From Thermococcus argininiproducens (GTDB lineage Archaea > Methanobacteriota_B > Thermococci > Thermococcales > Thermococcaceae), in the NCBI RefSeq assembly GCF_023746595.1, contig NZ_CP080572.1:558001-622000 (forward strand): 64,000 nt of DNA, written 5' to 3'. Below, in pieces: positions 49,966 to 63,409 of this stretch (position 1 is its first letter; each line of letters begins with the position of its first letter). The notes beneath the pieces are model-generated. The model was not told where the DNA came from and made no database searches. It worked only from the letters and a program-made list of their open reading frames with translations. Made by a program: the position numbers and the translations under genes.

Positions 49966-50050
49966 CTCTTTTCCGCAACCTTTATTTGTTTTGACTGCGT
50001 AACATTTAATTAGGTAAATTAGTAAAAAACTTAGTTTAGAGGTGCCGGGA

Positions 50051-52309
50051 ATGAAAAGAATATTTTCGCTAATTTTAATCCTGCTAATAGTGATTCCTTA
50101 TGCTGGAGCACTCCCCATTTTAGACGCTTCCACGAGGTTTCTAATTGAGGGCGAGGATTACATGGATGGTACTCAAGAGATAAGTTTATCCTTAATGGCC
50201 TTGCTCTCGAGCTATTCTATCGCTGAGAATCTTACCAAAGAAAATATCGCGAGTTTTGTGGATGAGCTATTGAAGAGACAAAATGAGGATGGAGGATGGG
50301 GATATTACGAGGGAAGTGTGAGTAATGTTGTGGACACTTCTTATGCAGTTATAGCGTTAAAACGAGCAGCAGACTTTTATGCTTCTACTGGAGAATCCTA
50401 TTATGATGTCTCAAGTGCCCTTAGGAAAGGGCTGAGTTTTCTAGTAAGGTCCTACACCATGAATGGATGGGGCTACATACCAAACACACTGCCAGAGTTC
50501 TATCCAACCCTTATGGCAGTTTGGGCGTTGGGTGAGAATGGATATACGGAAAAGAGCAGATATGTGGAGGGAGCAATAACATACTTGGAGTCGGCCGAGA
50601 GGATGGAGATAAGTGAAGCGAAGGCCGTTGGACTAAAGATCCTTGCCTATAAGAGTGTTGGTTATCAAATACCTGAATCCCTCATTGAAAAAGCATGGGA
50701 GCTCGTAAATTCTGACGCTATTACCATAGATGAGAGAGCCCTGCTTACCTATGTGCTTACCACTCATGAAGGATTGACTTTTGAAGTTGCCAAACTCCTC
50801 AGCAGGCTAGAAGACCTAGCAGAGAGCAATGAAACCTTGATTTATTGGGCCAACGTTCCAGAAGAGTGGACAAACAGGGAGGTATTCGTGGCTTCAGCAT
50901 TTGCGGTCATGAGTTTTGCAACAGCCAATGCTCTCGGAGGAGTAGGGGGCATCATTTCAATAGAAGACTCCTGTTCTGCCCTTGAAAAAGTCCAGAATCC
51001 AGATGGAGGATGGGGGTACAGAGCAGGCTATAGCTCTGATGATAGAACCACTTATTACGTTTTAAAGGCATTGAAGAGGTGCTACTTTAAAGATGAAGTC
51101 ATTGAGAAGGGCCTAGAATGGGTTGAAAGCAGACTCCCTGAGAACATGGAAAAAGTTTCTAAAGAAGGACGATTAAACTCTGCTTACATTTACAACCTCC
51201 TCACGCTTCTAGAGTTTAACATGCTCAATGAAACTGAGAAACAAACCCATATCTCATTTATAAAGAGCTTGAGTGAGGATGGGAAATGGAAGACGGTACT
51301 TGGGCCACAACCATACGATACAGCTCTTGCTATAAAGGCTCTCCTAGCATTGGGGGTTGATCCAAGTGATGAGGACATAGTAAAAGCAAAAGAGTGGCTC
51401 CTCTCACTACCAACAGATGGATGGGGCCTTCGCATACAGATTGCCGTTCCATTTAGGGTCCGTTATATCATGCCCACAGTTCCCACAACTTTAGAGGTTC
51501 TTGAGGCTCTCACTCCACTGGTCACTAAAGAAGATGTTGAAAGGCACTTGACATGGCTTATGGAGCAGAAAATCGAAGATGATGGATGGCCTGTTGTTAA
51601 GGAGATTTATATTAGAGACATCCTGATGTATTTAGGGGTCCCATCAGTTGAACTCACAATACGGGCCACTAAAGTCCTATACGACTTTGGCATAGACTAC
51701 CGTGCTGAGACGTTTAACTGGCTTTTGGATCACCGCAGCGATGGTTTATGGGGAACAACTTTAACAGAATCCGCCCTTGCAGTACTCTTCTTCTCTGAAA
51801 TGGGGAATGTATTAATTAAGCCCCTCAATTTATATCAAGTCCTCAAGCAGATTCCCGAGAAGAACTTTACGATCCTTTACACTTCTGGTTATAACTCCAC
51901 TGCAGTTTCACTTGGAGAAGCCCTCAGTGGAGTATTTGAAAAGAGCTTTGAGATTAAGCCCTTTGAAGAGTTTGGGGATTCCAACTACATCGTAGTCTCA
52001 GACTTCAATACGTTTAATATACTCCAGTACAACCCGTACATTAAGGTAAAGAGCGATGATATGTATGTCTATCTTGATGATGCGAGCTATCCAATAAATG
52101 ACACGGTAATTTTAATTCCAGGAAAAACCAGCGAGGGATACCTACTGTTTGTACTCTCATCTAAAGGTGCAGAGGATATTGTGAGCACGTTCTTCAGTTC
52201 CACGATAATCAAGTACCTCAATGGAGCCGCCTGTGTAATAACGCATGAGGACAAGAACCATAACGGGGTAGTGGAGTTTGATGAATTGAACATCGAGCTT
52301 GTGGGGTGA
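50051..52309 (+). CDS. Secreted alpha/alpha-toroid protein with C-terminal EF-hand-like loop
   Basis: 752 residues from ATG 50051. Signal peptide (RIFSLILILLIVIPYAGALP). The body has repeated G-W or D-G-x-W units like terpene-cyclase/prenyltransferase repeats: NEDGGWGYYEGS, NGWGYIPNTLP, NPDGGWGYRAGYSS, DGKWKTVLGP, DGWGLRIQIAV, DDGWPVV and SDGLWGTTLTESA. The tail EDKNHNGVVEFDELN matches an EF-hand/dockerin calcium loop. Known: extracellular toroids bind or process polysaccharides or proteins; the function here is unknown. It lies directly upstream of cetZ (7-base gap) and probably heads the surface-structure operon. Confidence 0.75.
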   Translation: MKRIFSLILILLIVIPYAGALPILDASTRFLIEGEDYMDGTQEISLSLMALLSSYSIAENLTKENIASFVDELLKRQNEDGGWGYYEGSVSNVVDTSYAVIALKRAADFYASTGESYYDVSSALRKGLSFLVRSYTMNGWGYIPNTLPEFYPTLMAVWALGENGYTEKSRYVEGAITYLESAERMEISEAKAVGLKILAYKSVGYQIPESLIEKAWELVNSDAITIDERALLTYVLTTHEGLTFEVAKLLSRLEDLAESNETLIYWANVPEEWTNREVFVASAFAVMSFATANALGGVGGIISIEDSCSALEKVQNPDGGWGYRAGYSSDDRTTYYVLKALKRCYFKDEVIEKGLEWVESRLPENMEKVSKEGRLNSAYIYNLLTLLEFNMLNETEKQTHISFIKSLSEDGKWKTVLGPQPYDTALAIKALLALGVDPSDEDIVKAKEWLLSLPTDGWGLRIQIAVPFRVRYIMPTVPTTLEVLEALTPLVTKEDVERHLTWLMEQKIEDDGWPVVKEIYIRDILMYLGVPSVELTIRATKVLYDFGIDYRAETFNWLLDHRSDGLWGTTLTESALAVLFFSEMGNVLIKPLNLYQVLKQIPEKNFTILYTSGYNSTAVSLGEALSGVFEKSFEIKPFEEFGDSNYIVVSDFNTFNILQYNPYIKVKSDDMYVYLDDASYPINDTVILIPGKTSEGYLLFVLSSKGAEDIVSTFFSSTIIKYLNGAACVITHEDKNHNGVVEFDELNIELVG

Positions 52310-52316
52310 AATTACT

Positions 52317-53420
52317 TTGAGGGCTTTAATCATTGGAGTAGGCCAGTGTGGGACAAAGATAGCGGATTTGTTCGCCTTAGTGGACTTTGAGGCACTGGCC
52401 ATAAACACCTCAAAGAGTGACCTTGATTACCTAAAGCATATTCCTAGGGAACGGCGTATACTCATAGGCGAGAGCCTAACTGGAGGAAAGGGAGTAAATG
52501 CAAACCCAGTACTCGGAAGAGAGGCAATGAAAAGAGATCTTTCAATGATAATGAAGAAGATAAACTCGATGGTAGGTTACAGCGACGTTGATATCTTTTT
52601 CCTCACTTTTGGTTTTGGTGGTGGAACAGGGGCTGGAGGAGCTCCAGTTTTGGCTGAAGCACTGAAAGAAGAATATCCGGATTCACTCGTCGTTGCAATT
52701 GGAGCACTCCCATTAAAGGAAGAAGGGATAAGACCAACAATAAATGCTGCAATAACAATAGACAAGCTTTCCAAAGTAGCCGATTCAATAATAGCCATAG
52801 ATAACAACAAACTTAAGGAGAGTGGCGAGGACATAACACGGGCCTATGAGAAAATAAACCATACGATAGTTGAGCGCATAGCATCCCTTCTGGCATTAAT
52901 AGACATTCCCGGAGAGCAAACACTCGATTCCAGCGATCTGAAGTTCGTACTTAATGCTTTTGGAAGCTTCGCTACTGTAGGTTATGCAAAGGCTGAAGCA
53001 AATAAAGTTAGGAATCTCTCCCGGCTTATCTTAAAGTCATTTGAGAACGAGGGGCTTTATCTCGAAGCAAATATAGAGTCTGCCCTTTATGGGTTAGTAG
53101 CAATCCACGGGCCTCCTGAGCTTTTAAAAGCTAGAGACATATTTGAGGCTCTCAGTTACCTAACCAAAAAGATTAAAGGAAAGCAGATTTTCCGCGGCTT
53201 TTATCCAGATCCAAGGGAAAAGGAGATAGAAGTTGTCACTCTCTTAACAGGGATTTATGAGAGTAAAAGCATTGAGGACATAGTGATAATCGCTAAACAA
53301 TATGCTCAGTCATTCATAAAAGCGAAAGAAGAGGCCGAAACAAAGAAAAAAGAACTTTTGACAGGTCTACCGGATTTTGATGACATTTATCCGGGTGAGA
53401 TTAATGAAAGACTCGATTGA
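52317..53420 (+). CDS. cetZ: CetZ-like tubulin/FtsZ superfamily GTPase
   Basis: 367 residues from TTG 52317, with GGGGTGA 7 bases upstream. RALIIGVGQCGTKIADLFAL starts the GTPase; TFGFGGGTGAGGAP is the tubulin-signature glycine loop; KGVNANPVLG and LDIP/LIDIPGEQTLDSSDL follow. The C-terminal region ends in an acidic tail (LPDFDDIYPGEIN). Known: CetZ proteins control cell shape and motility-structure positioning in haloarchaea; Thermococcales members are unstudied to my knowledge. Inferred: it organises assembly or localisation of the pilin-type products encoded next to it. Confidence 0.85.
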   Translation: MRALIIGVGQCGTKIADLFALVDFEALAINTSKSDLDYLKHIPRERRILIGESLTGGKGVNANPVLGREAMKRDLSMIMKKINSMVGYSDVDIFFLTFGFGGGTGAGGAPVLAEALKEEYPDSLVVAIGALPLKEEGIRPTINAAITIDKLSKVADSIIAIDNNKLKESGEDITRAYEKINHTIVERIASLLALIDIPGEQTLDSSDLKFVLNAFGSFATVGYAKAEANKVRNLSRLILKSFENEGLYLEANIESALYGLVAIHGPPELLKARDIFEALSYLTKKIKGKQIFRGFYPDPREKEIEVVTLLTGIYESKSIEDIVIIAKQYAQSFIKAKEEAETKKKELLTGLPDFDDIYPGEINERLD

Positions 53421-54021
53421 TGTTGCCCTGGAGCTGAAGGAAAAGGAAGTCTACTCCCACATAGCCCACGAAAGCGCAGAGGACATGATTAGAATAATCT
53501 CTTCTATAGATGCTGAAAGAGCAAAAAACAGGGGAGAGATAATTCATTATGAAGATGACTGGGATGATTTGATGAGACAGAGAGTGGCCAAAGGAAAAAG
53601 ACACACTGCATTTGATTTCTACAATCCTGCTCTCCTCACGATATGGGAAAACAAAGTAAGAGGTATGAAAAAGGTTAAAAACGTATTTAAACTTGGGTTA
53701 GTGCTTTTAGGCATTTTTCTGGTAGCAGGAATAACAGCCACGATTATCTATGGCGAATTATGGGTTTTAATTCCTTTGAGCCTCATTCCGATGGTGATAT
53801 TTCTGCTGGACTATAAAAAGAACGCCCTTGATCTCGGTTACTACCAGCTTACCCAGCTTTTTATTGAAGAACTTAAAGAACTCCTAAAGAAATATGAACT
53901 TGACCCCGAACGGTACAAATTCAAAATATTTAATCATGATTATTTCGGAGTTTTAACGAAAAAAATTGGCACCAATGTTTTTGCAATGGTAAAGAAAGAT
54001 GAAACGGATGGAAAGCGTTAA
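53404..54021 (+). CDS. Membrane protein coupled to CetZ
   Basis: 205 residues from ATG 53404 (GGTGAG 4 bases upstream), overlapping cetZ by 17 bases. A long cytoplasmic N-terminal part (HIAHESAEDMIRIISSIDAE, then acidic HYEDDWDDLMRQR), two membrane helices (FKLGLVLLGIFLVAGITATI and WVLIPLSLIPMVIFLL) and a helical C-terminal cytoplasmic part (QLFIEELKELLKKYELDPER). No family is recognised. Its coupling with CetZ suggests a membrane anchor or adaptor for the GTPase, which is inference. Confidence 0.6.
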   Translation: MKDSIDVALELKEKEVYSHIAHESAEDMIRIISSIDAERAKNRGEIIHYEDDWDDLMRQRVAKGKRHTAFDFYNPALLTIWENKVRGMKKVKNVFKLGLVLLGIFLVAGITATIIYGELWVLIPLSLIPMVIFLLDYKKNALDLGYYQLTQLFIEELKELLKKYELDPERYKFKIFNHDYFGVLTKKIGTNVFAMVKKDETDGKR

Positions 54022-54060
54022 ATAATTTGTTGACGTGTTATTATTAGTATGGTGAGAGAG

Positions 54061-54765
54061 ATGAAAAAAGGACAGATATCGCTGGAGTTCCTATTCATAT
54101 TTATATTGTTCCTCGTACTCTTGACTTTCTCGATTAGAAATATTACCTTCTCCAGCGAGCATTCTGCAGATATGTTGAGAATTCAGGTTAGTGAAGAGGC
54201 GAAGTTGTTTGCAAACACGGTTTCCAATGCTATATCTCAGGTTTATGCGCAAGGACCAGGTGCAAAAACCACCGAATACTTCACTTTTAGGTATCTAAAT
54301 GATGAGTATTTTCTTAAGAAGGCCTTTGCAATGAATAACAAGCCCTACATTGTTGTGGGTTATCAAAATGGGACCTATGTAACAATACTCGAGTTTAACG
54401 AGACAATTATCTTTACTTCTTATGACACGGGTACAGATACCCTCTCGGCGAATATGGTGCCCATTCAAAGTGAAACGGATGCATTGAAAAAGAACTTCTT
54501 CCTTGCCGGTTCCCTCTACCGGAGAGACCTCAGCAATGCTAGCATTTATAGTGTGGTGGGAATTGGTGTGGAGTATAATGGGACTACGTATTCCCCCTCT
54601 ATCTTAAACCTCAATATAACTCCATATAACGGGATACTGCTTTTCCCAGAAGTTAGCCCTACCACGTTAAAGATAGTTGTTGAATGGAATCCGGATAGGA
54701 ATGAGAGCTGGATTTTCAACTCTACTGCCCAGGAGCTTAGGATAAACCTTAACGTCGGTGGTTAG
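54061..54765 (+). CDS. Pilin-like protein with class III signal peptide
   Basis: 234 residues from ATG 54061. MKKGQISLEFLFIFILFLVL has the archaeal prepilin pattern: basic residues, Gly-Gln cleavage site, Glu at +5, then a hydrophobic core. The rest is beta-rich with Asn-x-Ser/Thr sites. Known: such precursors are cut by an archaeal prepilin peptidase and assembled through their N-terminal helix. First of the six consecutive pilin-type genes. Function in the filament (major or minor) is not evident. Confidence 0.8.
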   Translation: MKKGQISLEFLFIFILFLVLLTFSIRNITFSSEHSADMLRIQVSEEAKLFANTVSNAISQVYAQGPGAKTTEYFTFRYLNDEYFLKKAFAMNNKPYIVVGYQNGTYVTILEFNETIIFTSYDTGTDTLSANMVPIQSETDALKKNFFLAGSLYRRDLSNASIYSVVGIGVEYNGTTYSPSILNLNITPYNGILLFPEVSPTTLKIVVEWNPDRNESWIFNSTAQELRINLNVGG

Positions 54766-54766
54766 T

Positions 54767-55189
54767 ATGAGAGGACAGTTAAGCTTGGATCTGCTTTTCG
54801 CTTTTGTACTTGTTACTCTTACGATGTTAAACCTGATTTATCTAGCCAATAATGAGATGGCCCATGCAGAGAGTTTTGATGCAATGGCAAAGGTGAGAGT
54901 TTTTTCAGCTGAAATAGTCGACCATACGGCCAAAGTTTATGCCGTGGGGGAAGGATACAGACTGAAGGAGGAAACTCCTCAAATAAGTGGAGCCACTTTT
55001 CGCATCACTTTTAATGGAGTTGCGAACAAAATAATAGTCAACGTGACAGTGGATGGGAAGAGTTATTGGATAGTTAAGAACTCCACGGTTCCTGTGACTA
55101 ATGCTTCAATAGTGGTTAACAGTGGAGAGAGTTTTTGGATAACTACTGTAAGGATAGGTGAGATGCTTTATGCGAATATCACGGAGTAA
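54767..55189 (+). CDS. Pilin-like protein with class III signal peptide
   Basis: 140 residues from ATG 54767, one base after the previous stop. MRGQLSLDLLFAFVLVTLTM shows the same cleavage pattern (Arg-Gly then Gln, Asp at +5). The C-terminal part is a compact beta domain (ISGATFRITFNGVANKIIVN). Size suits a minor pilin. Confidence 0.8.
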   Translation: MRGQLSLDLLFAFVLVTLTMLNLIYLANNEMAHAESFDAMAKVRVFSAEIVDHTAKVYAVGEGYRLKEETPQISGATFRITFNGVANKIIVNVTVDGKSYWIVKNSTVPVTNASIVVNSGESFWITTVRIGEMLYANITE

Positions 55190-55649
55190 GGGGCAAACGG
55201 CCATTGAGATGATATTCATACTAGGCATACTTTTCATCGGGTTAATCATGATTGTCCCCTCTTACACGGATAATAATACAAATATAATGATAGTGAGCTA
55301 TGTGAGGAGTTCCCTTTCAAAGGCCATTGACTACCTGAACACGGGAGTTATGACTGACGATGAGCCCTATAAAAGCACACTAAATCCATTATTATCACAG
55401 ATCACAGAAAATCCACACTTATCTATTAAAAATTTCACCTCAGAGGAGAGCATAAGTGAAGTCAACATAACAATACTGATTTCAACTCCATATTTATCTA
55501 TCCAGAACCTTAATGCTAGCATTGTTTCAAACCTCACGGAGTTTCTTGAAAAAGATCTCGTGGAAAACTATCGTTTTACAAACAATACTGGGATTTTGAG
55601 GTATGGTGGGAAGAGAGTAAACATAGAAATTGATGTGGTGAGAGGATGA
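55170..55649 (+). CDS. Pilin-like protein with class III signal peptide
   Basis: 159 residues from ATG 55170, overlapping the previous gene by 20 bases. SRSKGQTAIEMIFILGILFI has a Lys-Gly-Gln site with Glu at +5. The remaining sequence has several N-x-T sites (NNTNIM, NFTSEE, NITILI) and predicted beta content. A minor-pilin role is inferred. Confidence 0.8.
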   Translation: MRISRSKGQTAIEMIFILGILFIGLIMIVPSYTDNNTNIMIVSYVRSSLSKAIDYLNTGVMTDDEPYKSTLNPLLSQITENPHLSIKNFTSEESISEVNITILISTPYLSIQNLNASIVSNLTEFLEKDLVENYRFTNNTGILRYGGKRVNIEIDVVRG

Positions 55650-57088
55650 GAAGAAAGGGACAATTACTTTCAATAGATGCTTTACTTTCACTGGTCATTG
55701 TTGTCATGGTTGTGGGGGTAGTTATGAATACCAATGATATGATAAAGGCTGAGATAACAGGCCTTTTAGACTGGTATGATAGGGCAAACATTGCCAATAA
55801 CATGCTTGATGTTTTAACTAAAAACCCCGGCTATCCTGAGAACTGGGAAGAGAATGTGAGTAATGTTAAAGTGGTGGGATTGAGAGATGCTGATTATCCA
55901 TTTGCCTTAGACTATGAAAAAATAGAGGCCTTAAACACTTCTATAAATGGTGCATTTATACAAAACAGCTATCTTTTGAAGCTAAGTAGAGCTCACGATT
56001 TTGAAATTGAGGTTTATATAACAAAAAGAGACGTCAATGCTAGTGGACGATTTCCAAAAGGAGAGGAAAATATAGTATTTGAGGCTAATCCAGGGGTGAA
56101 CCTAGATATAAATGGAAGTTCTCCTAGTGGGATATTTCAAGTTGAATGGATAGAGATAACAAAAAACAATGGATCGGTATATAGAAACGAGCAAATATGT
56201 ACTTCTCTAAAAAGTGGTAACAATGTGGATTTAGAAAACAATGATGTGCTTGAATTTAAAGTTTCAGAGGACATAACAATCACTGGAATAAGAGGCGAGG
56301 TAATAGGGCCCTATTTGATCCCTGCAGGTTCAATAGTTACAATAAATGTGCTTATAACCCAGTCTCAAGGATTTCAAATAAACTATGGAGGTGGGAGCTG
56401 TCCTTACCTCTTCAAGGTAGCTGGACAAGGAAACGTGAAAATCTCAGTGGATTATGTAGATTATGGGAATTGGAACTTGACTTCCCGTGTTACTCATTTT
56501 TCAAACCTTACGGAGCCTACGTACATGTTTGCTGTAATTAATGGATCACTATACACAGATGAAAGTGTGATAAATGCATCAAAGGCTCGTTCACCATGGA
56601 TACAATATGAAAGAAGAGACTTTGTAATTAAAAAGGAGATTTACAATAAAACCATTAAAGTTGGAACTACTAAAAAAGTGTTGGTTTCTGGGAGACTTGT
56701 TGAAAATATTCCTGCTCACTTTTATTTAGAGCTTCAAGTTTCGGGCACTGGAAATGCGACATTTGTTGTTGTGGATGATGTTCAAGTTAGAGGTCTTTTT
56801 ATAGAGAAAACATCTCAGGACTCTGCCCTCAAAGCTGTACTCTTTTGGAGAGAAGATGGACAGAACATAACAAAGTTTTACACAGGGAATACCACTAGTG
56901 TAAAGATACTTTGGGGCGATTTATTTGAAGAATTACCATCAGAGTACATGTCAAAGATTGTTGAGCTGTGGATATATGAGAATAACTTCTCGGATCTCAT
57001 TCTCGAGGATAAAGGTGATTTAGGCCTTCTGTTAGATCCCATTTTTGAACAAGGAAGGATAAAACTATGGGTGTGGGATGACAGATGA
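55646..57088 (+). CDS. Large pilin-like surface protein
   Basis: 480 residues, overlapping the previous gene by 4 bases (ATGAG). MRRKGQLLSIDALLSLVIVV is a class III-like leader with Asp at +6, followed by a large beta-rich extracellular part including GIFQVEWIEITKNNGSVYRN and ITGIRGEVIGPYLIPAGSIV. It contains few Cys. Size is well above normal pilins. Inferred: an adhesin-like minor subunit. No family beyond the leader is recognised. Confidence 0.65.
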   Translation: MRRKGQLLSIDALLSLVIVVMVVGVVMNTNDMIKAEITGLLDWYDRANIANNMLDVLTKNPGYPENWEENVSNVKVVGLRDADYPFALDYEKIEALNTSINGAFIQNSYLLKLSRAHDFEIEVYITKRDVNASGRFPKGEENIVFEANPGVNLDINGSSPSGIFQVEWIEITKNNGSVYRNEQICTSLKSGNNVDLENNDVLEFKVSEDITITGIRGEVIGPYLIPAGSIVTINVLITQSQGFQINYGGGSCPYLFKVAGQGNVKISVDYVDYGNWNLTSRVTHFSNLTEPTYMFAVINGSLYTDESVINASKARSPWIQYERRDFVIKKEIYNKTIKVGTTKKVLVSGRLVENIPAHFYLELQVSGTGNATFVVVDDVQVRGLFIEKTSQDSALKAVLFWREDGQNITKFYTGNTTSVKILWGDLFEELPSEYMSKIVELWIYENNFSDLILEDKGDLGLLLDPIFEQGRIKLWVWDDR

Positions 57089-59337
57089 GGAGAAAGGGAT
57101 TTATCTTTACATTAGATGCTCTCTTATCAGTGTTATTAGTAATGGTATTTGTGACGAGTGTTATCGTTGTGAGCGATAACGTGGGGATATATTCAACTTA
57201 CATGCGGGAACAAAATAAATACATTGCTGAGGATGTTTTAACTATTTTGAGAGAAGTGTCATTAAAAGACTTGGTTCCTCAACAAACACTGTCCCGGTGG
57301 GAAAGAGACGAAATACTAGATACGACATTTGTTTCACGAGACATGAGTCCTCTTGAAATCGTTGCTACGTACTGGACTATTGATCCCATTTATCCAGAGT
57401 TTAACCTAAAGCGCAAAGCCGAGATAATATTGGGTTATCTCTTAAACTCCACATTGGAAGGATATAACTATGAACTCTTGATAAACAACTACACTAGCCC
57501 TCATTTGAGAAATGTAGAAGGTAATTATTCAAAAGCTCTAGAAGTCTCTCCAGCCACGTTGGTATTAAGTGGATACATTTTCAATCAAACTCCTCGTGGA
57601 TATGTGGCAAGAGCGTATTTGACAAAACTGCGAGCCAAAGAAACAACTTATACTTACTTTGGAAGCTCAGCATTCGCATATGCTCCAAGTAGTCAGGACT
57701 ATACAATAATAAGATACATAATACCAAATGAAGAGGAGAATGAATTGCCGTATGATGTTAATATAACGAAAATAAAGTGGTTCGCTCAGCCCAGATGGTT
57801 TTCTCCTTCCTCATATATGCGCTTGTTTATAGATGGAGAGGCAGTTAAGTGTGGCCAGTTTAGAGATGATGCCTTTGTAGGATACAGCATATGGGAAGTT
57901 CTTGAGGATTCAAATTCTAATGATCCACTGACGTGTAATATGTTGGAGATTCTAAAGAGGCACAATGATTTAAGAAGGCACACTTTTGAAGTATGGGTTT
58001 ATAATCCAGCGGGCTCTCCCTACACAGGGGGTGTTCATCCTAACGTTTTTATAACTCTAACTTATCAAACATCCCAGTTAAGCACTTTCAATTATCCGCA
58101 AACATTCCATTTTGATGAAATTGAAACAAAGCATCCATTTCAAGTGGAAAATGCTATTTTTATAGGAGGAAACTTAAGCTCATTATACGTTCAGGTTCAA
58201 ATCCTAAATGCGTCAAAAGTTAGTGAGCCTAACTATCCTAAACTTTACTTAACTTATCTTGACAGACAGATTTCAGTAGGAGTTGGAACATACATTGGAA
58301 ATGATACTTACGTCTGGGACAATCAGACTATTTTTACTGCACTTCAAAATGGGGGTATATATATTGGTAATTTATCAAAAACATACTTGTGGTTTGCAGT
58401 AACTTTTGGAATGGATTACCAGGAGCCTCCTTATGGAGATTCTACCAGTTATGGATATAAGTTGAAACTTAATTATGATACCTCCTATATTAGGGCCGTA
58501 TATACTCCAGAAACTGCGAAAACTCTCTATTCTATTGACATAACAGAAGAGATAACAAAAGACGATGTTATAGCTAGTACGTATGCAAGAACTGCGTATC
58601 AGTCAACATTTTATACAATGCTCACTTGGAGGTACACTCTTCCCCTAAATGTTACTCCCATCTGGGCGAAACTTCATATTGTTAGGTTGCACTATCTTAA
58701 TGATCCAGACAAGGATCAGAAGATTTCTATATCTCCAGGCGTGAACAACTGGACTGTATTATACTGTCACAGTAGCGGAAATCTTGAGTGTACTCCAAAT
58801 AAACCATTTGCAGATCCAGCATTCACCAGATGGGGAATAGTTGATACGATGAAAAATAATACTGGGGATATTGTAACAAATGCTATCCTACCTGGGGATA
58901 ACTATATCAAAGTGGAAACAGGAGACGCTTATGTTATATCTCAGGAGTTTACTACAGGTGAATTTACATATTTGTTGGACGCATATGCTCCTTATGGAGA
59001 CATAAAGCCATATTTACTCCAGGGATATCCGGAAGTCCAAGCATACAATCTCACGTATAAATATGGCAGTGGAAGTCTTGGAAGTATATTTGTTGGAGAT
59101 ATAAAGGCTATTGAAAATGGGAGGTACATGAACCTTACAGTTGATCAGCTCAATCCTCAAGAGTATGCTGTTGATGATGCTATTATAAGGCTATTTCAGA
59201 AACTAGGGGGAGATGGATGGAATACACCAATATTAATTGAGCTTAAGGATACAAAGATAAGTTTCGCATCGTTGAAAGGTATTCCTAGGTCTATTGAACC
59301 AATAACGATAACCTTGCGGGTTTGGAGGGAGAGCTAA
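57085..59337 (+). CDS. Giant pilin-like surface protein
   Basis: 750 residues, overlapping the previous gene by 4 bases. MRRKGFIFTLDALLSVLLVM keeps the R-R-K-G and Asp +6 design, but the residue after Gly is Phe instead of Gln. The rest is an extracellular beta-rich protein with repeated Asn-x-Ser/Thr sites (NSTLEG, NYTSPH, NQTPRG). No conserved enzyme motif is seen. Inferred: a filament-tip or cell-surface adhesin tethered through a pilin-type N-terminus. Confidence 0.65.
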   Translation: MRRKGFIFTLDALLSVLLVMVFVTSVIVVSDNVGIYSTYMREQNKYIAEDVLTILREVSLKDLVPQQTLSRWERDEILDTTFVSRDMSPLEIVATYWTIDPIYPEFNLKRKAEIILGYLLNSTLEGYNYELLINNYTSPHLRNVEGNYSKALEVSPATLVLSGYIFNQTPRGYVARAYLTKLRAKETTYTYFGSSAFAYAPSSQDYTIIRYIIPNEEENELPYDVNITKIKWFAQPRWFSPSSYMRLFIDGEAVKCGQFRDDAFVGYSIWEVLEDSNSNDPLTCNMLEILKRHNDLRRHTFEVWVYNPAGSPYTGGVHPNVFITLTYQTSQLSTFNYPQTFHFDEIETKHPFQVENAIFIGGNLSSLYVQVQILNASKVSEPNYPKLYLTYLDRQISVGVGTYIGNDTYVWDNQTIFTALQNGGIYIGNLSKTYLWFAVTFGMDYQEPPYGDSTSYGYKLKLNYDTSYIRAVYTPETAKTLYSIDITEEITKDDVIASTYARTAYQSTFYTMLTWRYTLPLNVTPIWAKLHIVRLHYLNDPDKDQKISISPGVNNWTVLYCHSSGNLECTPNKPFADPAFTRWGIVDTMKNNTGDIVTNAILPGDNYIKVETGDAYVISQEFTTGEFTYLLDAYAPYGDIKPYLLQGYPEVQAYNLTYKYGSGSLGSIFVGDIKAIENGRYMNLTVDQLNPQEYAVDDAIIRLFQKLGGDGWNTPILIELKDTKISFASLKGIPRSIEPITITLRVWRES

Positions 59338-62300
59338 TGAAAAGGAGAGGGTTTATATTTAATTCACTAGTTTTGGTCCTTCTTATCCCCATGCTCTTAC
59401 TTCTGGCAACGTATGAAGACGTCACCTCCTGGATTGTACAATCTCAAAGTGAGAGAGTACAAGTAGAGAGAACGTTTAGAGTGACTTCTTACTTAGAAGA
59501 AGATTTCAAAAATGCTTTGGAATTATCAACTAAGCGTGCATTATCATTAACAGTGGATTTTGTGACCAATGAGCACACACCAATAGATAATGCGAGTAAA
59601 GCTATACAAGAATTGATTTTAAGAGGAACGTATCCGCAACTTAGTGGATATAGTAGAGTGAACCTTTTCATGAGGAATAATACTCTGCGAGACTGGATTG
59701 TTAATTTGAGAGACGAGCTGAGTAGACAGGGCTATATTTTAAGTCCTTCCGTCGATGAGATTTTAAATAATGTCCAAATAACAGTGGCGCCTTTAGATTC
59801 ATTTCATGTTGTTGTAAATGCATCTATATCGAATATATTAATTCAGGATCTCTCAGGTAAAGTAGTCTACAATTCATCTCTTCCTCAGGATGGCAGCATA
59901 TACGCTGTGATTTCTATAGAAGGAATGGAAGATCCTCTATTCTCATATTTGACTTATGGTAGATATTCTAGGATAGTCAGTTCGTGTAAATTTATGTATC
60001 CAAATTTAGCAAAACCTATTAAAGTAATAGAAGGATCTGGTTCTTCGGATATAGAGAAGTTTTCGGGCCAAGTCTCGATCTCTCTTGAAAACCTTACCTC
60101 AAATAAAATCTATGTAGGAGATTATTATACTGAGAAGGATGCTTTGGGATATATTGTAAAGAATGAGCCTGGTGTATCAGTTGACAAGCCCATAATATTC
60201 AACACCACCATTAATAATATCGTGGTTTCTCCGTTAGATATATTTGAAGACGAGGACATAGCTGTGATGGTCTTTGGAAATGTAAGTGGGGCTTGGTGCC
60301 CAGATGCCTCTGCATATGAGTATAGAGTTGAAATGAATATTTCAAGTTCGGACTTTGAGCCCAATGCCTTAACTCTCCTTGAGATTCCAGCATCTGCATT
60401 GGCGAATGCATATCATGATGGAAATTTGGCCTCAATTAGAGTATATGACGTTGGATGCAATCCAGTTTCATTCTGGATAGAAAAGTGGGGAAGCGATGAA
60501 ATATTAATCTGGATAAAAACAGGAACTACAAACCAGTATTTCATATATTATACCACGGATCCAGCTTATGCCATCGATGGATATAACAAAGAGACACTGT
60601 TTGACCTCTACGATGATTTTGAAGGTACCTCAATAGATACTACCAAGTGGGATATATTAGGAAGTGCTACTGTGGATGGAAATGGGAGCTTAATTGTGTC
60701 TGCTAATGAAAAAACGAGTGTTTTAGAGTCGAAAATATCATTTAACTATCCGATATTTGTGAGATATAAAATGAAAAGTACCTCTGGGACTTCTGACTTT
60801 GACTCTGGAATAGCAGTAGTCTTTGGAGTCTCAGGAGGAGAAAGGCTGTTAGTCAATGTGACATATGCAGGTTCACAAATTTCTGATTATACTAATATCC
60901 AGATTCCAATTAAACTTGAAGGAACGGACTTCCCCGATTATATTAACGCTCAAGATAATACAGCAGAAATTAAGGTTTATGATAACCAGGAGAATGAGGT
61001 CCCATTTTGGATTGAATACTGGAATACCACTGAGAGAAAGGCACTAATATGGGTAAAAAGCAGTTTTACATATGACCGTCGGCAAGGAAACACATACTAT
61101 TATCATGCTACTTTTTACATTGAATACAACACTGGAACTCTGACAAGAGGAAATGGAACGGCCGTGTTTGAGTTTTTTGACGACTTTGAGGATAGTACTT
61201 GGCAGGACACATGGGACTTGGTAGGGGGTACAAGTGCCAATATTGCTCAAACTAATGGGAACTTGATAATAAAAAATGGTAACAACCTTCTAGTATTAAG
61301 AAACAATGCGGATATAAATCTCTACGGGGATCATGCAATTAGATTTAGAATGAGACCCTACAGTTACTATGGAGATTGGGATGCGGGAATTGGAATTGAA
61401 GACCTGAATGTTAGGGTTGGGTATTATAACACTCTATTATTTACCGATGATGCAAGAGGTGAAAATACAAGGAATGGGGATTATTTGGCAGTTCATAGAG
61501 CCTGGTGGGATAATGGACGGCCCGATGAAATCAGGCAAGAACGTGAGGATAACAAATTCCACACGTATGAGGCTCAACTATTCCCTTATGATAATGATGT
61601 TTACTTCTACGATCTTACAAACGGTAGGGATAATTATGATTTTCGTTATGTAGAGGATCCCTTGTACAGGATATACCTTGTATTGGATAATGAGAACAAT
61701 GATAACTGGGTGTACTATGACTGGATATTCCTTAGAAAATATCTGGATGAAGATAATCTCAGCTATAATGTCCAGCAAGTATCCTCTGTCCAAAGCATGC
61801 CTATGCAATATATCGATGATAATCCTGGAAATGTTGATCATAATGGCGATTTACTAGCAATACTCCAAAATTGGACCAGTTCATTGGCAAGTTCATCCAC
61901 TAGTAGTGATTTAACAGCATATCGCAGGTACGAGGTGATTTTCAATTATGATTCTAGAGGCATTTCTACCACGTTTTCAGATCTGGACGCTGTTTCTAGG
62001 ATTACCTCGGCTTCCGTGGTGACTTCACCCCAACTTCCCTTGAAAGTGCAAATAATTATTGACAATCTCGCGGGTAACGATGCTTATTTCGACTGGATTA
62101 TAGCTGGGAGGTACCCATATGTAAGCACTCAACCACAGTATTCTTCTCCGGAGTCCAAGGCCTCAGTACAAAGTGGGAAAAACGCAAGAGCTTATAATAT
62201 CCAACCTTATGTGGACTGTATCCAAGAGTATAAGTACTTCGGTGTTAGTGGTTATCCATCCTTCCTTGAGCGCTTGGAGGGAGGATCTACTACAAATAGA

Positions 62301-62627
62301 GTGTACTATGAAACCCTCGCTGCAAAAATGCAGGAAGCAGTATATGGTGAGGCTAAATACCCAATTGGGCTTGTTAGCTTTATCCTTCCAAAAGACTTAC
62401 CTCCAAATTTAGATTTCCTTGTTAGAAAACAACCTGCTGTTGACTTCATATATTTGGACTATGAAAATTACAGAAGTGATAGAAGCGATGTATATAAAGT
62501 ACTTGGAATATCTTCTAATGGGGGCGTTGCTACTCCGATCATAGATGAGAATTTCTATTTGGACTATCAGATAGCAACAGCAATATTCGGGGGACGAGGA
62601 GCCCAAGATTTACTAGTTTCGGGGTGA
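59337..62627 (+). CDS. Giant surface protein with pilin-like N-terminus and two DUF2341 domains
   Basis: 1096 residues from ATG 59337, whose A is the last base of the previous stop (TAATG). MKRRGFIFNSLVLVLLIPML resembles the neighbours' leaders but lacks the acidic +5/+6 residue. Two DUF2341-like modules are seen: near 340-440 (YRVEMNISSSDFEPNALTLL, NPVSFWIEKWGSDEILIWIK) and near 520-640 (PIKLEGTDFPDYINAQDNTA, VPFWIEYWNTTERKALIWVK), each followed by a DDFEG/DDFED-type jelly-roll carbohydrate-binding segment. Known: DUF2341 occurs in secreted adhesin-like proteins. It is probably a glycan-binding adhesin at the tip or surface. Asn-x-Ser/Thr sites are frequent. Confidence 0.7.
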   Translation: MKRRGFIFNSLVLVLLIPMLLLLATYEDVTSWIVQSQSERVQVERTFRVTSYLEEDFKNALELSTKRALSLTVDFVTNEHTPIDNASKAIQELILRGTYPQLSGYSRVNLFMRNNTLRDWIVNLRDELSRQGYILSPSVDEILNNVQITVAPLDSFHVVVNASISNILIQDLSGKVVYNSSLPQDGSIYAVISIEGMEDPLFSYLTYGRYSRIVSSCKFMYPNLAKPIKVIEGSGSSDIEKFSGQVSISLENLTSNKIYVGDYYTEKDALGYIVKNEPGVSVDKPIIFNTTINNIVVSPLDIFEDEDIAVMVFGNVSGAWCPDASAYEYRVEMNISSSDFEPNALTLLEIPASALANAYHDGNLASIRVYDVGCNPVSFWIEKWGSDEILIWIKTGTTNQYFIYYTTDPAYAIDGYNKETLFDLYDDFEGTSIDTTKWDILGSATVDGNGSLIVSANEKTSVLESKISFNYPIFVRYKMKSTSGTSDFDSGIAVVFGVSGGERLLVNVTYAGSQISDYTNIQIPIKLEGTDFPDYINAQDNTAEIKVYDNQENEVPFWIEYWNTTERKALIWVKSSFTYDRRQGNTYYYHATFYIEYNTGTLTRGNGTAVFEFFDDFEDSTWQDTWDLVGGTSANIAQTNGNLIIKNGNNLLVLRNNADINLYGDHAIRFRMRPYSYYGDWDAGIGIEDLNVRVGYYNTLLFTDDARGENTRNGDYLAVHRAWWDNGRPDEIRQEREDNKFHTYEAQLFPYDNDVYFYDLTNGRDNYDFRYVEDPLYRIYLVLDNENNDNWVYYDWIFLRKYLDEDNLSYNVQQVSSVQSMPMQYIDDNPGNVDHNGDLLAILQNWTSSLASSSTSSDLTAYRRYEVIFNYDSRGISTTFSDLDAVSRITSASVVTSPQLPLKVQIIIDNLAGNDAYFDWIIAGRYPYVSTQPQYSSPESKASVQSGKNARAYNIQPYVDCIQEYKYFGVSGYPSFLERLEGGSTTNRVYYETLAAKMQEAVYGEAKYPIGLVSFILPKDLPPNLDFLVRKQPAVDFIYLDYENYRSDRSDVYKVLGISSNGGVATPIIDENFYLDYQIATAIFGGRGAQDLLVSG

Positions 62628-62632
62628 TAATC

Positions 62633-63409
62633 ATGGAGCTTGATAGAATCCTATATAAAATTGGTGAAATAGCGGAAGCATTCACTGGAAAATCAATCCA
62701 ATGGATTAAAGACATTGTAAATCCTACTCCCTCTCAAAAACCTCCAAAGTTCAAATTCCTTAAGAAGCTGATAAAAAGAGAGCTTACAGTTCATGAATTC
62801 TTAAGTTTAAACCTTCAACTCTCCTTTATCTTTTATCTCGTATTCGCTCTCTTATTGGTAGTTCTTTTTGGGAATGAGCTATATCTAACTATTATTTCGG
62901 TTGCTTACTTTATTTATCTTCGCTACATACTCATTAAAAACCGTGACTTTTTCATTGAAGTTGAGCCTTACAGATTCTTCTATTATGGGCTCACTGCAAT
63001 AGGTTTTCTTTCCTTTTTGGGCTATCTCCTAATAAGAAGGTTCGCAAAGAATGTCTATTACTTCTACGCCTACCTTATAGCTATTTTTGTCATTGTATTG
63101 GTCTTTAGATACATCTACAAATCGAAGTTTACTAGGGATTGGACTTATGGGGTAGTAGAAGACGTCAAAGGTGAGCTTGTGCTGGTAAGTGTTCACGATG
63201 ACATACGAGCCAATGTGAAGCCTGGTAAATATTGGGTGGATAACACTGAAGATGTTGAAGTGGGAGATGTCGTAAAGATTCTCGTAGAAGAAAGAATCTT
63301 CAGGAGCGCTATTCCAAAGAGAGTGTTAGAAGTTCATAAAGCGAAACCTTCATCATCAAAAACCTCAACAGAACCAAAAGCTGAAAGTGAAAAGAGCACT
63401 AGTAAGTAA
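62633..63409 (+). CDS. DUF2101 membrane protein
   Basis: 258 residues from ATG 62633 (preceded by GGGGTGATAATC). Four or five hydrophobic segments lie between about 60 and 165 (LQLSFIFYLVFALLLVVLFG, IISVAYFIYLRYILI, FFYYGLTAIGFLSFLGYLL, YFYAYLIAIFVIVLVFRYIY), followed by an OB-like soluble domain (YGVVEDVKGELVLVSVHDDI, VEVGDVVKILVEE). Known: DUF2101 is an archaeal family of unknown function. It is coupled to the giant adhesin gene by a 4-base overlap of the upstream frame and may be a membrane component of its assembly. Confidence 0.75.
   Translation: MELDRILYKIGEIAEAFTGKSIQWIKDIVNPTPSQKPPKFKFLKKLIKRELTVHEFLSLNLQLSFIFYLVFALLLVVLFGNELYLTIISVAYFIYLRYILIKNRDFFIEVEPYRFFYYGLTAIGFLSFLGYLLIRRFAKNVYYFYAYLIAIFVIVLVFRYIYKSKFTRDWTYGVVEDVKGELVLVSVHDDIRANVKPGKYWVDNTEDVEVGDVVKILVEERIFRSAIPKRVLEVHKAKPSSSKTSTEPKAESEKSTSK

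Follow-up and report, generated by a model that had tools for sequence, protein, structure and literature searches.

A conserved two-helix membrane protein encoded next to CetZ in Thermococcaceae is a candidate membrane adaptor of this archaeal tubulin homologue

Introduction

Bacterial tethers of the ZipA and FtsA type grip FtsZ, the filament protein, at its C-terminal peptide, and ZipA has one helix. According to the sections of PMC8178401 considered here, archaeal FtsZ binds SepF through a GID motif; SepF is small and membrane-bound, and it likewise recognizes a tubulin-superfamily protein at its C-terminal peptide. As for CetZ, the route of its filaments to the membrane is not stated in the parts of the CetZ literature text considered here.

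The genes that surround cetZ in Thermococcales have been described before. All of the cetZ regions analysed in this order have been called pili-associated (PMC9856176, section 3.11), and an FtsZ-family GTPase and a squalene cyclase are reported in the clade 1 pilus loci of most Thermococci, as far as the sections of PMC4858521 considered here go. The locus studied in this work, with CetZ (arCOG02202), a squalene cyclase and pilins, is the same as the one treated in the corresponding parts of Makarova 2016 (PMC4858521) and Brown and Duggin 2023 (PMC9856176), where the use of CetZ by a type IV system has already been proposed. The association of CetZ with squalene cyclase and pilus genes is thus already known. 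Moreover, genes of no named function, often coding for coiled coils, and quasi-tandem copies have been noted near archaeal tubulin-like genes in the sections considered of PMC9871819, so tandem CetZ arrangements have already been glimpsed. The text portions considered of PMC4858521 and PMC9856176, whose figures may draw the gene, do not discuss a membrane protein overlapping CetZ, a CetZ tail peptide or a TATA-like box ahead of the pilins. Similarly, the overlapping protein, the tail peptide and the single-pass family described below are not named in the portions considered of the open-licence literature text, including PMC9871819, PMC8178401, PMC7617429, PMC2875224 and PMC11621097, whose figures or supplements may show the genes.

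The window analysed here is a stretch of 64,000 nucleotides from Thermococcus argininiproducens. An initial annotation of this window, made from the sequence alone, had pointed to a membrane protein gene overlapping cetZ and had proposed its product, called the partner in this text, as an anchor of CetZ. The present work compares this pair of genes across Thermococcaceae and other archaea.

Results

The gene that follows the squalene-cyclase-like gene encodes a CetZ. Its product matched the Tubulin domain (PF00091, E 5.9e-33) and CetZ_C (PF21011) with 63.2 bits against a cut-off of 21.6, and did not reach the cut-off of the FtsZ equivalog TIGR00065 (133.7 bits versus 295.2). In a tree of 32 rows, with only three FtsZ-like sequences and long branches, the CetZs of Thermococcaceae formed one clade (99/97) on a branch between FtsZ and CetZ groups A, B and C, and they would be basal among the CetZs if FtsZ is the root. 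This position is in line with the use of the Thermococcaceae-type CetZ as the boundary of the CetZ family in the parts of PMC9856176 considered here.

The TTG start and the good ribosome-binding site that the initial annotation had given for CetZ were found as described, and the last 17 nt of the gene do form the start of the gene for a two-helix membrane protein (Table 1), the ATG of which (53404) is preceded by GGGTGAG (53393-53399). The TTG start is ordinary, since the aligned start codons of 86 genomes were GTG in 56, TTG in 25 and ATG in 5, that is, GTG or TTG in 81. For the squalene-cyclase-like gene, the ATG at 50051 is probably a likelier start than the listed GTG at 50042, as judged by the ribosome-binding site. 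As in the clade 1 pilus loci, a pilin with a class III signal peptide lies next to CetZ and the squalene cyclase. PF04021 was weak in the third pilin (E 0.13, below the cut-off), and DUF2341 is carried by the last of the five further genes of the array (59322-62627). Neither a secretion ATPase nor a TadC-like platform protein was detected among the 18 window proteins scanned.

Table 1. Features of the cetZ locus, in positions of the window
Feature	Position	Strand	Basis
Squalene-cyclase-like alpha/alpha-toroid protein, N-terminal signal-like helix, first of the gene trio	50042..52309	+	PF13243, E 5.9e-13
CetZ ribosome-binding site GGGGTGA	52303..52309	+	Read directly; 7 nt ahead of TTG
CetZ (tubulin/FtsZ superfamily), 367 aa, TTG start, stop TGA 53418-53420	52317..53420	+	PF00091 and PF21011
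CetZ C-terminal peptide, residues 347-359 (LLTGLPDFDDIYP), proposed docking peptide	53355..53393	+	Pairwise identity
CetZ/partner overlap, 17 nt, +1 frame	53404..53420	+	
Two-helix membrane protein (partner), 205 aa, ATG start, proposed CetZ membrane adaptor	53404..54021	+	
Partner N-domain, residues 2-85, probably cytoplasmic, proposed CetZ-binding part	53407..53658	+	Conservation
Partner TM1, residues ~97-116	53692..53751	+	Inside helix 75-116 of the AF2 model
Partner TM2, residues ~123-141	53770..53826	+	Overlaps helix 129-163 of the AF2 model
Partner C-terminal helix and small beta part, residues 142-196	53827..53991	+	Distantly related to other archaeal two-helix proteins
TTAAATA, TATA-like box ahead of the pilin genes	54018..54024	+	Kept in 20/21 loci, 0.6 expected
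Pilin-like protein 1, class III signal peptide	54049..54765	+	PF04021, E 3e-7
Pilin-like array, five more genes (54758-55189, 55158-55649, 55646-57088, 57085-59337, 59322-62627)	54758..62627	+	
DUF2101 membrane protein closing the pilin array	62624..63409	+	PF09874, E 8.3e-75

Of 94 Thermococcaceae genomes, 89 had a CetZ_C match; the remaining 21 genomes of the class had none. The partner adjoins CetZ in all 89 genomes with a CetZ_C match (86 measured; G010, G049 and G056 taken from match coordinates), so it is not missing beside the close CetZ orthologues. The five genomes without CetZ_C (G053, G057, G062, G064 and G088), which are drafts of 73-91% completeness, yielded no partner: G062 and G064 gave weak hits, but these covered the membrane part only and vanished with the profile. 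The start of the partner overlaps the stop of CetZ by 1 to 35 nt in 81 of 86 genomes, with start codons chosen by rule. The genes are separated in G089 (+1), G028 (+2), G070 (+5), G038 (+12) and G067 (+69), and alternative partner starts are present in G089 (ATG at -8) and G070 (GTG at -4). In G067, a run of A apparently shifts the frame and disrupts the CetZ tail; the tail seen in its relatives can be read in another frame (L017:7060-7177).

Gene spacing also differs along the locus. The gap between the squalene-cyclase-like gene and CetZ was 4-12 nt in 25 of 25 loci. The partner and the first pilin overlapped in 0 of 21 loci and were separated by 23-87 nt, with one gap of 724 nt. Between these two genes the motif TTAAATA was found in 20 of 21 loci, some of them almost duplicates of one another, where shuffling predicts 0.6; it was found in only one of the 21 in the 82 nt before CetZ and in none before the partner. 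This box is the probable promoter of the pilin array. Tight packing of the first three genes, followed by a gap with a box, suggests that CetZ and the partner are probably transcribed together and separately from the pilins; the squalene-cyclase-like gene, CetZ and the partner appear to make up one unit, and the pilins a second.

Since pilin-like proteins are encoded in the same locus, the partner could serve the pilins instead of CetZ, which is a point against an adaptor. It might be a component of a type IV-like pilus machine, such as an assembly or platform protein, with CetZ as an incidental neighbour or recruited by the machine. The pilin-like genes do come next and in the same direction, in agreement with the pili-associated cetZ regions of Thermococcales and the clade 1 loci with an FtsZ-family GTPase and a squalene cyclase, as reported in the parts of PMC9856176 and PMC4858521 considered here. 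However, the pilins have a TATA-like box and a gap of their own while the partner overlaps CetZ, and no pilus family of Pfam or NCBIfam was matched by the partner. A role of the partner in the pilus machine is regarded as unlikely.

The overlap itself was compared with that at the neighbouring gene junctions, using up to 25 loci for which longer flanking sequence was taken; the number of loci drops along the array as contigs end. Overlaps were observed in 10/20 loci for pil1/pil2, 16/17 for pil2/pil3, 16/16 for pil3/pil4, 12/15 for pil4/b750 and 8/8 for b750/b1101; the same script gave 20/24 for CetZ and the partner, which differs slightly from 81/86 because the two scripts choose start codons differently. 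Most junctions of the pilin array overlap too, so overlap does not single out the CetZ/partner pair, and the gene spacing described above says more than the overlap does. The step from coupled translation to a stoichiometric complex, which the initial annotation had taken, does not follow for the same reason.

Conservation is uneven along the partner. Mean pairwise identity was 0.84 in residues 2-85, 0.32 in the hairpin (97-141), 0.62 in 142-170 and 0.54 in 171-196; of the 52 positions that are conserved in 98% or more of the 85 sequences, 42 fall in the N-domain (2-85). Its identity comes close to that of CetZ itself, which reached 0.90 in the GTPase domain and 0.86 in the C-domain across 86 genomes. 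This pattern fits a constrained surface carried on an interchangeable anchor. Together with the adjacency in all 89 genomes, it partly supports the initial annotation, which had suggested the partner as a candidate membrane anchor. The same data bear on the reading that adjacency and overlap are compact packing within one family, with CetZ and the partner acting independently. All 86 genomes belong to one family, so the kept gene order may partly reflect short divergence, and overlaps are common in the pilin array. Against this, the overlap was kept in 81 of 86 genomes despite CetZ lengths of 363 to 391 residues, and the constraint on the N-domain approaches that on CetZ. Packing as the whole explanation is considered rather improbable.

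Two helices (residues ~97-116 and 123-141) are joined in the partner by a short loop of about six residues with one charge. The initial annotation had placed both long ends in the cytoplasm; the helices were confirmed, and the 10 K+R against 2 D+E in residues 60-96 fit an N-terminus inside, while residues 142-175 are near neutral (6 K+R, 7 D+E), so the flank past TM2 speaks weakly for a C-terminus inside. Both ends are proposed to be cytoplasmic. The idea that the partner forms, together with the exported squalene-cyclase-like protein encoded 4-12 nt ahead of CetZ in 25 of 25 loci, a trans-envelope unit that signals to CetZ or is positioned by it, rather than a simple anchor, appears improbable, since so short a loop leaves little for extracellular contact and the conserved parts of the partner are presumably cytoplasmic.

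The AF2 model of the partner (pLDDT 78.9, pTM 0.72) contained long helices at residues 2-42, 75-116 and 129-163, with a small beta part at the C-terminus; residues 1-9, 64-72 and 201-205 scored below 50. The most conserved stretch of the protein, 64-75 (GKRHTAFDFYNP), falls mostly in the low-confidence segment 64-72 of this lone model and might behave as one that folds on a partner. A model of a fused CetZ-partner chain (L017, with the stops read as TGA=G and TAA=S) reached a pTM of 0.39 and is uninformative on binding, as the partner rows were aligned by MAFFT on CetZ columns (invariant columns inside CetZ 160-314). Foldseek returned no match for the partner model at E 0.001, and the resemblance to a designed helical bundle (best VIA Z 7.7) is commonplace for long helices and allows no conclusion. 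At the sequence level, the partner had no Pfam match above the cut-off, no NCBIfam match and no PDB sequence match. SepF was not matched in the partner (Pfam/NCBIfam, E up to 1), nor was it among the families listed for 21 partner orthologues (E up to 0.1). The STIV B116-like family (PF08960) was discarded as the identity of the partner, with 17.9 bits below the gathering cut-off of 26; at E up to 0.1 it appeared in 3 of the 21 orthologues (best E 0.0035).

A tightly conserved peptide located past a looser linker is the usual look of docking peptides, for instance that of the FtsZ C-terminus. The tail of CetZ in the 86 genomes looks like this: mean pairwise identity was 0.69 in the helix and linker (331-346), 0.87 in the peptide (347-359) and 0.24 at the end (360-367), and the almost invariant peptide reads LLxGLPDFDDxYP. 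Many Thermococcus CetZs carry an extra tail that ends near ...PDxxxxxxLRR. The GID motif is absent from the tail, which makes a receptor other than SepF plausible. The FtsZ of the same genome (L093:3868-5013) terminates with ...IVKIDLTEL and does not resemble the CetZ tail LLTGLPDFDDIYP, and these unlike tails may mean different membrane receptors.

Additionally, relatives of the partner were searched for. The putative paralogues in Thermococcus (E ~1e-4 to 1e-3) nearly all matched in the membrane part only and none was recovered by the profile; one that was inspected (L086) looks by eye like an EamA-type transporter, and these matches were discarded as paralogues. A profile search with the partner found distant two-helix proteins in other archaea, and profile comparison supported the relation, most clearly across the second helix and the C-terminal part (probability 94.5%, E 7.4e-8). 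Among 17 inspected loci of these relatives, the neighbours were mostly genes for an amino-acid permease, a phosphoesterase and a nucleotidyltransferase-like protein or, in two genomes, GatD/GatE-looking genes, all named by eye. When ten window proteins including CetZ were compared by blastp with these 17 loci, nothing was detected at E 1e-3. With such relatives away from CetZ, the fold of the partner would have a longer history and a broader distribution than CetZ, and its form with the near-invariant N-domain was encountered in the CetZ locus alone. A neighbourhood made of amino-acid permease, metallophosphoesterase, nucleotidyltransferase-like protein and two-helix relative recurs in archaea (L156:1224-4337, L189, L190, L192 and L202; names partly by eye).

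The initial annotation had also raised the question of which CetZ groups possess the partner. Its presence is general in Thermococcaceae with CetZ and does not extend to the CetZ groups sampled outside the family. Among 396 archaea sampled, CetZ_C was found in 26 genomes outside Thermococcaceae, of which 23 were kept (E below 1e-10) and G182, G229 and G383 (E 3e-4 to 1e-3) left out. The partner profile (A1) is absent from these 23 genomes, with one match at E 0.82. Instead, a different membrane protein or none was found with CetZ in these genomes and in the second sample described below. A different membrane gene lies within the CetZ cluster in 12 of 17 regions inspected; as judged by hydropathy and by eye, its product combines a signal peptide and an extracellular domain with a single C-terminal helix and a short basic tail, mostly like RRKREELG. 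This single-pass protein gave no Pfam match above the gathering score (six proteins) and no NCBIfam match above the cut-off (four proteins).

With the profile of the single-pass family (A6), matches at E <=1e-20, a line drawn after the results were seen, were obtained in 20 of the 23 CetZ genomes and in 0 of 373 others (next best 5.8e-15, partial); as 11 of the 20 positive genomes supplied rows of A6, the fairer count is 9/12, with 5 of the 9 belonging to the same genus as a supplying genome. In 17 of the 20, no more than ~2.5 kb separates the match from a CetZ gene; in G202, G292 and G309 the match is unlinked. A second sample comprised 125 genomes of the phylum of G202, some of them common to the first sample, with 81 strong-CetZ genomes (85 minus G182, G419, G465 and G470). 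At E 1e-8 the single-pass protein was present in 47 of the 81 CetZ genomes, absent in 34, and present in 3 of 44 others. At least 39 of the 81 have it directly downstream of the best CetZ on the same strand, a count that rests on the place of the best CetZ. Possession by CetZ of a membrane protein of its own is a frequent rule, not a universal one. The two families are both membrane proteins encoded with CetZ, and no profile link between them was seen: A6 had no match in the genome of the window (G000) at E 0.001, and A1 gave the single match cited above.

Some of these regions hold three tubulin-like genes. The run CetZ-A, CetZ-B, single-pass protein, CetZ-C was observed in seven (L237, L238, L239, L246, L247 (4054-8180), L248 and L252), with gaps of -26 to 16 nt among the genes of the cluster (seven loci measured), and the cluster occurs in several archaeal families. 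In L239 a glycosyltransferase-like gene lies ahead of CetZ-C, CetZ-B is short in L238 (255 aa), and an eighth region of this type, L240, ends after the membrane gene. In the one CetZ-B protein scanned, the tubulin GTPase domain alone was above the cut-off.

Discussion

The gene order kept throughout Thermococcaceae with CetZ, together with an N-domain constrained almost like CetZ on a free membrane hairpin, makes the partner a candidate for a dedicated membrane adaptor of CetZ in this family, a reading to which we would give an even chance. In such an adaptor, the two helices would make up a hairpin that leaves both termini in the cytoplasm, and the near-invariant N-domain would capture CetZ, most likely via the LLxGLPDFDDxYP peptide near the end of the CetZ tail. 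This would keep CetZ polymers at the membrane, presumably close to the squalene-cyclase-like and pilin-like surface proteins whose genes lie alongside. That the tail itself is the docking site for the partner is proposed tentatively, as the less probable part of the scheme. The frequent company of CetZ and a membrane protein elsewhere in archaea (20 of 23 genomes, and at least 39 of 81 with the gene directly downstream) speaks for the adaptor. Against it, distant relatives of the C-terminal half of the partner are mostly not beside CetZ, and 34 of the 81 CetZ genomes in the second sample lack the single-pass family.

The proposed adaptor would follow the same logic as the ZipA and FtsA tethers, and no sequence relation of these to the partner was found. 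The likeness to SepF, as described in the sections of PMC8178401 considered here, is also one of logic; the partner differs in having no SepF match and two transmembrane helices, and the CetZ tail in lacking the GID motif.

More generally, CetZ cytoskeletons may often be modules with a lineage-specific membrane protein, in which the conserved C-terminal peptides of CetZ would serve as docking sites and the anchor would be exchanged while the tubulin is kept. The module would include the two-helix protein in Thermococcaceae and, in many other archaeal lineages, the single-pass protein with its extracellular domain and short basic cytoplasmic tail, which some lineages encode amid three tubulin-like paralogues. 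We consider this generalization possible, with the chances somewhat against it.

The partner is a co-encoded and highly conserved membrane protein, and thus a concrete and testable candidate in Thermococcus, a genetically tractable genus; the single-pass family is the matching candidate for other archaea. If the adaptor reading is true, an archaeal relative of tubulin would be tied to a defined spot of the cell surface, which would help to explain why the CetZ gene lies beside surface and pilus genes.
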